From: Candidatus Poribacteria bacterium
Lineage (GTDB): Bacteria; Poribacteria; WGA-4E; WGA-3G
Assembly (NCBI GenBank): GCA_028818705.1
Contig: JAPPNJ010000161.1
Span: 53,801-117,800, forward strand
Direction of reading: 5' to 3'
Length of the DNA stretch: 64,000 nucleotides
Part shown: piece after piece, positions 15,203 through 55,933 of the stretch
How the letters are laid out: each line of letters opens with the position of its first letter
Numbering within the stretch: position 1 is the stretch's first letter
The notes under the pieces: model-generated
Databases searched by the model: none
What the model was told of the DNA's origin: nothing
What the model saw: only the letters and a program-made list of their open reading frames with translations
Program-made: the position numbers and the translations under genes

Positions 15203-15931
15203 ATGAAACTGGTTAAGTTGTCAGTACTGATTGCACTGTTCTGTGCTATCGGTCTTTTTTCTGCAGAAGTCGCTACGGCATTAGACGACTGGATATTTGT
15301 TGACTTAAAAGAAAAGTCGAACACATTTTTAGTCAAGCACCAGTGGTGGACCAAGACCCCCGGTGACAGCACGCTCTCTCTTCTGCCTATTGATAAAGTG
15401 GCGGACTTTGAGGGGCCTGACGGGAAAGTTAAATTTCAGATTATTGACGGGGCGATCGTCGTTTTCGGCACCAATGCAGCACAATGGCCCAAAAAAGTCG
15501 AAGGCATTGTTGTTGAAGGTAAGGCGAAATTTATCTACTTCCTTCACGCAACTGGATGGGAACAGAACGGTGTTCCAAGTTACGTATTTGTCATGAACTA
15601 CCGAGATGGAAAGAAAGAGGAACTTGAGCTGATTTCAGGTTTTAACTCCGATGACTGGTGTCATGAGGAAGCCCCACTCAAAGATGATAACTCCGTCTGG
15701 GGATGGGTCAAGAAGGCAGGCGGTCCTTGCGGTCATGCCGGATTGGTTACCACAAAATGGGAGAATCCGCGCCCAGATATCTGGATCGATACCATAGATA
15801 TCGTCTCTCTGGAATTAGGATCGGTCCCTGTCATTCCAGCGATTACATTGGGCGAGGCGACCCTTGCCGTGGATCCTATAGAGAAATTATCAGTCACTTG
15901 GGGTAGCTTGAAAGATTCACATGGATTTTAG
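15203..15931 (+). CDS. Secreted protein of unknown function with C-terminal WGxLK motif
   Basis: Signal peptide (LIALFCAIGLFSAEVATA); RBS; C-terminus VDPIEKLSVTWGSLKDSHGF. Confidence 0.8.
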   Translation: MKLVKLSVLIALFCAIGLFSAEVATALDDWIFVDLKEKSNTFLVKHQWWTKTPGDSTLSLLPIDKVADFEGPDGKVKFQIIDGAIVVFGTNAAQWPKKVEGIVVEGKAKFIYFLHATGWEQNGVPSYVFVMNYRDGKKEELELISGFNSDDWCHEEAPLKDDNSVWGWVKKAGGPCGHAGLVTTKWENPRPDIWIDTIDIVSLELGSVPVIPAITLGEATLAVDPIEKLSVTWGSLKDSHGF

Positions 15932-15984
15932 GGGATGTCTCTTTCCTTGTTAGCCGAGAACTCTAACCTCATCAGTCATCCACG

Positions 15985-16008
15985 GTAGGCGAGGTTTCTA
16001 ACCTCGCC
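15985..16008. repeat. REP-like palindrome family A (GTAGGCGAGGTTTCTAACCTCGCC), possible terminator
   Basis: Perfect GGCGAGGTT/AACCTCGCC stem with GTAG head, followed by a T run. Confidence 0.85.
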
Positions 16009-16041
16009 TATTTTTCTGTTTCCGCGTGTCCCTATAAAAAA

Positions 16042-16070
16042 TTGACTTTACGCATTGTGTATGCTATAAT
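16042..16070 (+). promoter_or_regulatory. groEL promoter (sigma70, extended -10)
   Basis: TTGACT-N17-TATAAT with TGC immediately before the -10; no CIRCE (TTAGCACTC-N9-GAGTGCTAA) seen. Confidence 0.75.
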
Positions 16071-16142
16071 TATATCAGCGATTTTAAGCGCAACACTTTA
16101 TATTTAACACTATAACACTACAACTGATACAGGAGGAATTCA

Positions 16143-53335: not shown

Positions 53336-53615
53336 ATGTTTCTATTGTAACATTTGTACTGTAGTTAGGTTTCTTTGGAGGGATATGAAATTTTTCCAAA
53401 AGGTTAACTGCTTTCTAACAAAGCAATTTTAACATGTTTTGCCGAAAAAATCAAAATTTTCTTAATGCTTCCGATAATTTCTAACCTTTACCATACGAAG
53501 ATATCCCCGAATCTTGAAAATCCTTGAATCCTGTCCATCTCGATTCTGACAATGGACGCTATAGATGACTCGCATTTAAATGCTGAGCCTTCTACCTAAA
53601 CATCGATTTTCTTAC

Positions 53616-53644
53616 TTGACATCAGTTAGCAAATAGAGTATAAT
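53616..53644 (+). promoter_or_regulatory. Perfect-consensus sigma70 promoter without a convincing downstream CDS
   Basis: TTGACA-N17-TATAAT, both hexamers perfect. Confidence 0.75.
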
Positions 53645-54292
53645 ATATCATCTGTTTTCCAAAAAGGCGAATATTGTATCCATCTCCAAAACGCTGGTGT
53701 GGAAACCGACACAAACGTTTTCAGCAGCTATATTAGGTTCTTTGCTGATCGCCAACAGCCAGAAAAAATGTTACACTTTTGGCAAAATTGCTTTTTTTCG
53801 CATAACAGAAAATCGAAAGTAAAACATGAACAAACCCTGACAACCACTGGGTTCTCTAACGTTATAGGCAACATACCAAATGGTACACCGGTGTAACATT
53901 AGTGTAACATTTTTAGGGTAAATCGTTGAAAAATATGCCGTTAAGTTAAAATCATATTCACATCTGTATTTTCACGGAGAATGGATTGGTTCAACGCCAC
54001 AAACTCACATGACACCTATGCTGAAAAAATTCTCCGTGAAGCCTCCGTGAATCATACCAAAATCCGAATGTCAATTTTTCGTTTGACAAATTTCCGACAA
54101 AAATGTAAGATATACAACAATAAGTAATCACTGCCAACATGGAAAACAGTTGCAACTGTGCAACAAAAACGTGTTGACATCGTTTTCTATTATAGATAGT
54201 AGCGAAAGCGGACAGGTTACACGACTCATGAAGGATCTTTACCGCGAATCGCGCTACAGATTTTCACTTCAAATCTGCAGGAGGATTTACAC

Positions 54293-55123
54293 GTGAAACT
54301 ATTTATGACTGTTGCTGGCGTACTATGTGCCATGACTCTCGCACTCTTGGCTCCTACAGCTGACGCCGCGAATAAAGTAGATATTTTCATCTACACAGAC
54401 ACGGTGCAATGGATTGGCGACGCCCAAGCAAAAGAAGAAGCCGAAATACTGGCAGATGAACTTAAGGGAAAAGATGGAATCGGTGAACTCATTCTTCACG
54501 GTCCAGCGAAAACTGTCGAAGCTTGGACCAAGAAACACACGGTGGACAACGGACACCATATGATCGTCATGTTCGGTGACGTTCCGCCCGAAATTTACGA
54601 TGTCGGCGTAGACGCAAAAAAAGAGACAGTCGCAGAAAGGTTCCTCGATGCAGGCAATACCTTCGCAAACTGTGCTGACTACTTTTTCTGGGGCAAGGGT
54701 GGCAGAAATAAAGAAGGCGGTATCCAGAACATGATGGATATCCCTGGTATGGTTCAATGGGATGATAACACCGCCATGAAGGTCACGAAAGAAGGCAAGA
54801 AAATTACCCCGACGCTTGACGATTATGCCACAGACCGTCCGTTCCACGTCGATCAGCTTGACAATGATTGGGTTCTGGAAATCGCGTTCGCTACAGATTC
54901 TGGAACTCAAAAAGCCGATCGCTGTGACCCTTGTATTGTTCATAATGAAAAGACGAATGGACGACTCATCCAGTTTTACCAAACCGCTAACCAAGATGAC
55001 CCCAAGGGTGAAGTTATTGCCGAAATTATTCTCAACTACTACCTTGAGACTGTCGGCGCACTGGACGTTGACCCTCAAAATAAACTTCCCACACTCTGGG
55101 GAGACATTAAACAAAGGAGATAA
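54293..55123 (+). CDS. Secreted protein of unknown function, tandem paralogue 1, C-terminal WGxIK motif
   Basis: RBS aggagg; signal peptide; C-terminus VDPQNKLPTLWGDIKQRR. Confidence 0.85.
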   Translation: MKLFMTVAGVLCAMTLALLAPTADAANKVDIFIYTDTVQWIGDAQAKEEAEILADELKGKDGIGELILHGPAKTVEAWTKKHTVDNGHHMIVMFGDVPPEIYDVGVDAKKETVAERFLDAGNTFANCADYFFWGKGGRNKEGGIQNMMDIPGMVQWDDNTAMKVTKEGKKITPTLDDYATDRPFHVDQLDNDWVLEIAFATDSGTQKADRCDPCIVHNEKTNGRLIQFYQTANQDDPKGEVIAEIILNYYLETVGALDVDPQNKLPTLWGDIKQRR

Positions 55124-55129
55124 CATTTA

Positions 55130-55933
55130 ATGCGAAATATTTTCCTTTCACTAACGCTTATTGCGTTAATAGCGTTGCCGTTAGCACCCGTCCTTGCCGC
55201 CGGTGAAGTCGCTATCTACACAGGTGTCACGCAGTGGATCGGTAAGGCACCAGCCGACGAACAGGCTGAAATCTGTGTCGGTCTGCTCAACGATGCTGGT
55301 ATCGCGAACACATGGTACGATGCTGAGAGCGACACGTCTGATTTGGCTGCTTGGATGGAGGATGTCACCGGCGACGGCGGTTTGGATATCTGCGTCCTCT
55401 ACGGTGATTTCCCGCCGGACATCTATCCACAAGGCAACACACAAACGGACGGCTCCATTGCCGAGACATTCATCGAAACCACCGACGGCGATGTGTTCAT
55501 CAACCACGCCGACTATATGTTCTGGGGCTTAGCTGGCAGAAATAGGGAAGGTGGACTACAGAATATGATGGATATCGACGGCATTGTGATGTGGGACGAT
55601 AATACCGACATGAAAGTTACTGCCGAAGGTAAAGCCATTTCTCCCTCACTCACAGATTACCAATCCGACCGTCCCTTCCACACCGATCAACTCGATGGAG
55701 ACTGGGAAATTGAGGTATCTCTTGCACAGAATGATGATGGCACCCGTGCCGACCCAATTATCGTTCGTGATGGGAATCTCGGTAGACTGATTCCGACGAT
55801 ACAGACCAATGGTGGCGACGAACCGAAAGGTGCGATTGCCGCTGAAATTATTACCTGGCTCATGGCCACAACGCCGGTTGAACCTGCTGGTAAACTCTCC
55901 ACAACGTGGGGTGATTTAAAAGCAGTCCGGTAA
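55130..55933 (+). CDS. Secreted protein of unknown function, tandem paralogue 2, C-terminal WGxLK motif
   Basis: Signal peptide; shares QWIG, FGDVPPEIY/YGDFPPDIY, FWGxxGRNxEGGxQNMMDI, WDDNTxMKVTxEGK, DRPFHxDQLDxDW with 54293 ORF; C-terminus VEPAGKLSTTWGDLKAVR. Confidence 0.85.
   Translation: MRNIFLSLTLIALIALPLAPVLAAGEVAIYTGVTQWIGKAPADEQAEICVGLLNDAGIANTWYDAESDTSDLAAWMEDVTGDGGLDICVLYGDFPPDIYPQGNTQTDGSIAETFIETTDGDVFINHADYMFWGLAGRNREGGLQNMMDIDGIVMWDDNTDMKVTAEGKAISPSLTDYQSDRPFHTDQLDGDWEIEVSLAQNDDGTRADPIIVRDGNLGRLIPTIQTNGGDEPKGAIAAEIITWLMATTPVEPAGKLSTTWGDLKAVR

Follow-up and report, generated by a model that had tools for sequence, protein, structure and literature searches.

Four exported proteins in one window end in the same short tag

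Four predicted exported proteins encoded in a 64-kb stretch of a Candidatus Poribacteria draft genome (the window, by which we mean the whole stretch analysed) end in much the same short motif. Is this shared ending a sorting or anchoring signal, as was originally predicted from the DNA, and what might read it? Poribacteria inhabit sponges and the sea; the genome in question comprises 6.04 Mb in 232 contigs and is 95% complete and 5.6% contaminated.

All four genes lie on the plus strand and encode P0001 (242 aa, 15203..15931), P0002 (198 aa, 49840..50436, this start being preferred over an earlier ORF start at 49798), P0003 (276 aa, 54293..55123) and P0004 (267 aa, 55130..55933). Their C-terminal tags, found both by reading and with a hidden Markov model (HMM), are VDPIEKLSVTWGSLKDSHGF (15869..15928), VNPTGNLVTTWANIKKRSK (50377..50433), VDPQNKLPTLWGDIKQRR (55067..55120) and VEPAGKLSTTWGDLKAVR (55877..55930). 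Each tail proved to be as first read, with V, P, L, W and K invariant across the four. The N-terminal signal peptides ascribed to these proteins were likewise borne out, each ORF having a signal-peptide-like start by a home-made rule that was applied identically to tagged and control ORFs. Only the last two proteins had been called paralogues, and this agrees with their 48% identity and with a BLAST comparison that sorted the bodies of P0001 and P0002 into other groups. The P0001 body has no relatives in the tagged set, and P0002 has a paralogue elsewhere (L040). Pfam returned no matches for the four proteins, and NCBIfam nothing meaningful.

P0004 has an alpha/beta body whose best named homologues, up to 90% identical, are all from Poribacteria, and a Foldseek search of P0004 against the PDB gave no match at E <= 0.001. 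The body shared by P0003 and P0004 (54293-55933) belongs to no Pfam family, occurs also in multi-domain proteins of Planctomycetota, and is a candidate for an undescribed alpha/beta domain. Other paralogues lie side by side in the window: two HNH_2 endonucleases on the minus strand (51379-53335) and two GFO_IDH_MocA oxidoreductases (47058-49711).

The tag recurs at the C-termini of many exported proteins

An HMM built from the four window tails gave at least 150 scored matches in the genome, at E-values up to 0.3. Regions around the matches were extracted and re-scanned, which yielded at least 147 unique tagged ORFs. Their consensus is [LF]-[ADPS]-V-[ED]-[PA]-x-[GD]-K-L-[AT]-T-T-W-[GA]-x-[LI]-K, which can also be written with any residue in second place and a closing x(1-4), and the tag is 17-20 residues long. 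It is the internal W[GA]x[LI]K that is conserved, the residues at the very end being variable; K or R is present in 97 of 133 tails. At the DNA level, the pattern TTW[GA]x[hydrophobic]K matched the genome 116 times, against 2 matches for the reversed control, and this excess, together with the HMM matches, argues that the tag is not a chance resemblance. In 13 further regions, mostly outside the HMM list, all pattern matches lay no more than six residues from the end of an ORF. Since only 83 of the 147 tags fit the pattern that matched 116 times, we estimate that the 6 Mb genome encodes about 200 tagged proteins. A PD40/TolB-like propeller family (L183, L184, L185, L188, L194) ends in a variant, ...WFDPAYALPVSPQPHLLTTTWGEVKRQ, with one residue more between the V and the TTW core.

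The original prediction anticipated tens of matches, C-terminal, on exported proteins with unrelated N-terminal parts, and the genome held just such a set. The motif lies 1-10 residues from the C-terminus in 144 of the 147 ORFs, and signal-peptide-like starts were found in 127 of 133 full-length tagged ORFs (~95%), whereas among 245 control ORFs from these regions the count was 71; by eye, a signal peptide can be made out in several of the six tagged ORFs that scored negative. Diversity was equally plain. When the bodies, stripped of signal peptide and tag, were compared all against all by BLAST, they fell into 29 groups: 70 LamG-like members, groups of 11, 10, 5, 5, 4 and 3, five pairs and 17 singles. 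The 133 tagged proteins matched 42 Pfam families, among them Laminin_G_3 (73 proteins), 3-keto-disaccharide hydrolase (10), kelch (5), PD40 (4) and CBM9 (2). Neither Pfam nor NCBIfam had a model lying over the tag in scans of the four window proteins and the 133 members, with 25 of the 42 Pfam families listed.

Among LamG-like tagged proteins the median identity is 26% for the bodies and 53% for the tags, and tags on different body groups are 53% identical too. The tag is therefore constrained independently of the body that carries it. The folds that AlphaFold2 modelled for P0004 (alpha/beta) and for a LamG protein (all-beta) are different. Each model gives a confident body (mostly above 90 pLDDT in P0004) and places the tag outside the fold, at about 50 in P0004 and about 50-62 over the two models, with a short low-confidence helix drawn over W..K. 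We claim no helix or strand periodicity, since the hydrophobic moment of the tag is no higher than that of column-permuted controls (fractions of 0.315 and 0.230 of the controls reach it). Overall, the tag is confined to the C-termini of predicted exported proteins from unrelated families, with one orthologous group as the exception.

The tag is found throughout Poribacteria

We assessed the taxonomic spread of the tag in Poribacteria and Planctomycetota, using an HMM built from 58 diverse tags. It matched all 85 Poribacteria genomes, covering all 22 genera, with 17 to over 100 matches in each. Among matches sampled in these relatives, deep lineages included, 75 of 75 were C-terminal, and 60 of 63 full-length tagged ORFs had signal-peptide-like starts. 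The same model matched none of 14 Planctomycetota genomes chosen for encoding P0004 homologues and 1 of 199 other Planctomycetota genomes, where two matches (L269, L270) share one contig (C103 of G287) that is possibly Poribacterial contamination. In the 14 chosen genomes the P0004 domain is 38-59% identical and untagged, being either embedded in large proteins or followed by the end of the protein where the domain stops. Every complete Poribacterial homologue of P0004 ends in the tag.

A probable sorting tag and its likeliest reader

C-terminal restriction, linkage to predicted export, unrelated bodies and phylum-wide occurrence together favour the interpretation first put forward, and at the level of sequence we consider it quite probable that the tag is a sorting or anchoring tag. 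Tagged proteins are predicted to leave the cytoplasm through Sec by means of an N-terminal signal peptide. The tail V-[ED]-P-x-G-K-L-x-T-T-W-[GA]-x-[LI]-K, which is free and probably flexible, would then act as an add-on address. It would be read after Sec export, either in the periplasm or at the outer membrane, and reading would export small single-domain proteins (LamG, sugar-binding domains, propellers) or fix them at the cell surface. As the likeliest reader we infer a divergent type IX secretion (T9SS) machinery of PorV-family shuttles, an SprA-like translocon and C25/PorU-like sortases. We put the probability of this explanation as a whole, a Poribacteria-specific C-terminal sorting tag that serves as a surface address with a type IX-type reader as the best candidate, at roughly 0.6.

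A PorV gene had been noted in the window, any link to the tag being called speculative. The gene (8574..9698, plus strand) does encode a PorV/PorQ-family outer-membrane protein, scoring 186 bits against a curated cut-off of 90. Elsewhere the genome encodes an SprA-like protein (138.5 bits, below the curated cut-off of 200; similar matches in 82 of 83 genomes) and PorU-like peptidases of family C25 that end in FlgD_ig (367.7 bits, below the cut-off of 420; matches in 83 of 83 genomes). The SprA-like, C25/PorU-like and PorV-family loci are L175:5754-12515 (contig C161), L177:3110-9445 and 9645-10691 (C39), L176:3077-9472 (C199) and window 8574-9698. The PorV-family proteins comprise the window protein, the one at L177:9645-10691 and another at C69:1335-2273. 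A PorV2-like gene adjoins a PorU-like C25 peptidase, and the SprA-like gene has a tagged LamG gene ~1.5 kb away. A search for the motor protein GldM gave no match, but its controls gave none either, so the result carries no weight. Judged by sequence, the SprA- and PorU-like hits are clear, though sub-threshold, and appear to be divergent T9SS homologues present across the phylum. With a window gene that is indeed of the PorV family, and with SprA- and PorU-like genes in the genome, the link between the tag and PorV becomes somewhat more credible, and the window protein is a candidate reader of the tag. That type IX parts do the reading is a tentative proposal, to which we give somewhat less than even odds.

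According to a 2024 paper, T9SS genes are restricted to the FCB phyla (PMC11285876); the genes found here, in contrast, point to T9SS-like parts outside those phyla. Kamke et al. 2014 (PMC3909097) reported Por-type tails in Poribacteria and did not find the structural genes, and the SprA-, PorU- and PorV-like genes would be candidates for the secretion route missing from that account.

Comparison with known C-terminal signals

We found no description of the tag in the literature, and the original remark that it matches none of the familiar sorting signals held: it has neither the helix of LPXTG, PEP-, MYXO- and GlyGly-CTERM signals nor a T9SS C-terminal domain (CTD). Like the T9SS type A CTD (TIGR04183, Por_Secre_tail), the tag stands at the C-terminus of many unrelated, predicted Sec-exported proteins, in a genome that encodes SprA-, PorU- and PorV-like genes. 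Unlike that CTD, an Ig-like beta-sandwich of about 70-90 residues, it has 17-20 residues, no folded domain and no recognisable motif B or D. Short type IX signals have precedents in the shortest described CTDs of 43-55 aa (PMC11969387) and in HBP35, whose secretion is reported to require only the last 22 residues (cited in PMC11969387 and PMC11285876), but the tag has no recognisable motif in common with either. The Por-type tails of Kamke et al. 2014 (PMC3909097) are likewise C-terminal signals on secreted Poribacterial proteins, but they are of the TIGR04183 type, that is, of an 88-aa CTD class from which the 17-aa tag is separate.

If the proposed reading is true, a single short motif would define much of what an uncultured phylum associated with sponges secretes or displays at its surface, and C-terminal sorting would come to include a signal that lacks both a membrane helix and a folded domain. 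The tag would also supply a new family model for annotation. It might even represent a new class of sorting signal, a domain-less, non-membrane, 17-residue tag on about 200 proteins per genome throughout the phylum, with a reader of its own, working apart from the type IX CTD or alongside it; we are inclined to doubt this a little more than to accept it.

Alternatives to a sorting tag

The main alternative is that the tag is no transport signal at all and instead serves as a docking peptide, a short linear motif through which free-standing exported domains attach to a shared scaffold or receptor at the surface, much as dockerins attach to cohesins. Tagged proteins are small (median ORF length 262 aa), mostly single-domain and lectin-like, their tails are left free in the AlphaFold2 models, and in Planctomycetota the P0004 domain is covalently built into large proteins, a linkage that the tag could replace. 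A C-terminal position in 144 of 147 ORFs, however, would suit a signal better than a docking module, and no scaffold with repeated receptor domains turned up incidentally in the analysis. We regard docking as unlikely, if the most serious rival.

Less probable still is a quality-control or processing mark, in which the tag would be a recognition sequence for a C-terminal protease or a binding site for a periplasmic chaperone and would carry no address. A free, low-confidence, lysine-bearing C-terminus on proteins predicted to reach the periplasm would suit such a role. On the other side stand the variable last residues next to a conserved internal W[GA]x[LI]K and the restriction of the tag to exported proteins of one phylum, Poribacteria as compared with Planctomycetota. 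We know of no C-end recognition mark that combines variable last residues with a conserved internal part as the tag does.

A membrane-anchored signal of the LPXTG, PEP-CTERM, MYXO-CTERM or GlyGly-CTERM kind is very improbable. The tag resembles GlyGly-CTERM/rhombosortase (PMC3237569), PEP-CTERM/exosortase and LPXTG/sortase signals in being a short near-C-terminal signature, often followed by basic residues, and it resembles MYXO-CTERM/myxosortase (PMC11980579) in its phylum-wide, many-to-one distribution over dozens of exported proteins. It differs from the former in having no hydrophobic stretch to separate the motif from the basic tail, and from MYXO-CTERM in lacking the invariant cysteine, the transmembrane helix and the tripartite structure. 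Within the last 50 residues, the best 17-residue window has a median hydropathy of 0.66 and exceeds 1.6 in 1 of 135 proteins; the sortase-type layout of motif, transmembrane helix and basic cluster is thus missing in the other 134 and is disfavoured for want of the transmembrane segment. The tag tails contain no cysteine, and no NCBIfam sorting model of this kind matched.

That the tag is merely the end of one homologous domain common to all tagged proteins, a reading the original prediction named as fatal to its own and to which the LamG matches in 73 of 133 proteins might lend colour, is refuted by the different folds (alpha/beta P0004, all-beta LamG, tagged kelch and PD40 propellers), by Planctomycetota homologues of P0004 that stop before the tag, and by tag identity that does not depend on body homology.

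A second C-terminal class and a hybrid protein

A second class of C-terminus is represented in the genome by 91 matches to an 88-residue, FlgD-like CTD resembling T9SS type A. About 80-90 proteins (L111-L140 and the match list) carry this nearly uniform domain, which starts NYPNPFNPETWIPYQL. They are mostly large, with a median ORF of 832 aa compared with 262 aa for tagged proteins. One body family (cluster 2) was found both tagged and within CTD proteins, with identity between the two forms reaching 52-72%, so that tag and CTD look like alternatives to each other; as a sorting signal, the tag would be a minimal substitute for the CTD that large secreted proteins of the phylum bear.

Among the 30 CTD proteins that were inspected, one contains the tag, immediately ahead of the CTD. 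This hybrid is a VCBS/ASPIC-like protein (L108:1675-3513) and the only one of the 133 tagged proteins to match TIGR04183, below the cut-off. Its internal tag core directly precedes the T9SS-like CTD, in the linker that a type IX sortase would presumably cleave. The arrangement is conserved in 30 orthologues (L271-L300) from two genera, which keep a W-G-[KR]-[ILV]-[KR] core, the K-L position often being relaxed.
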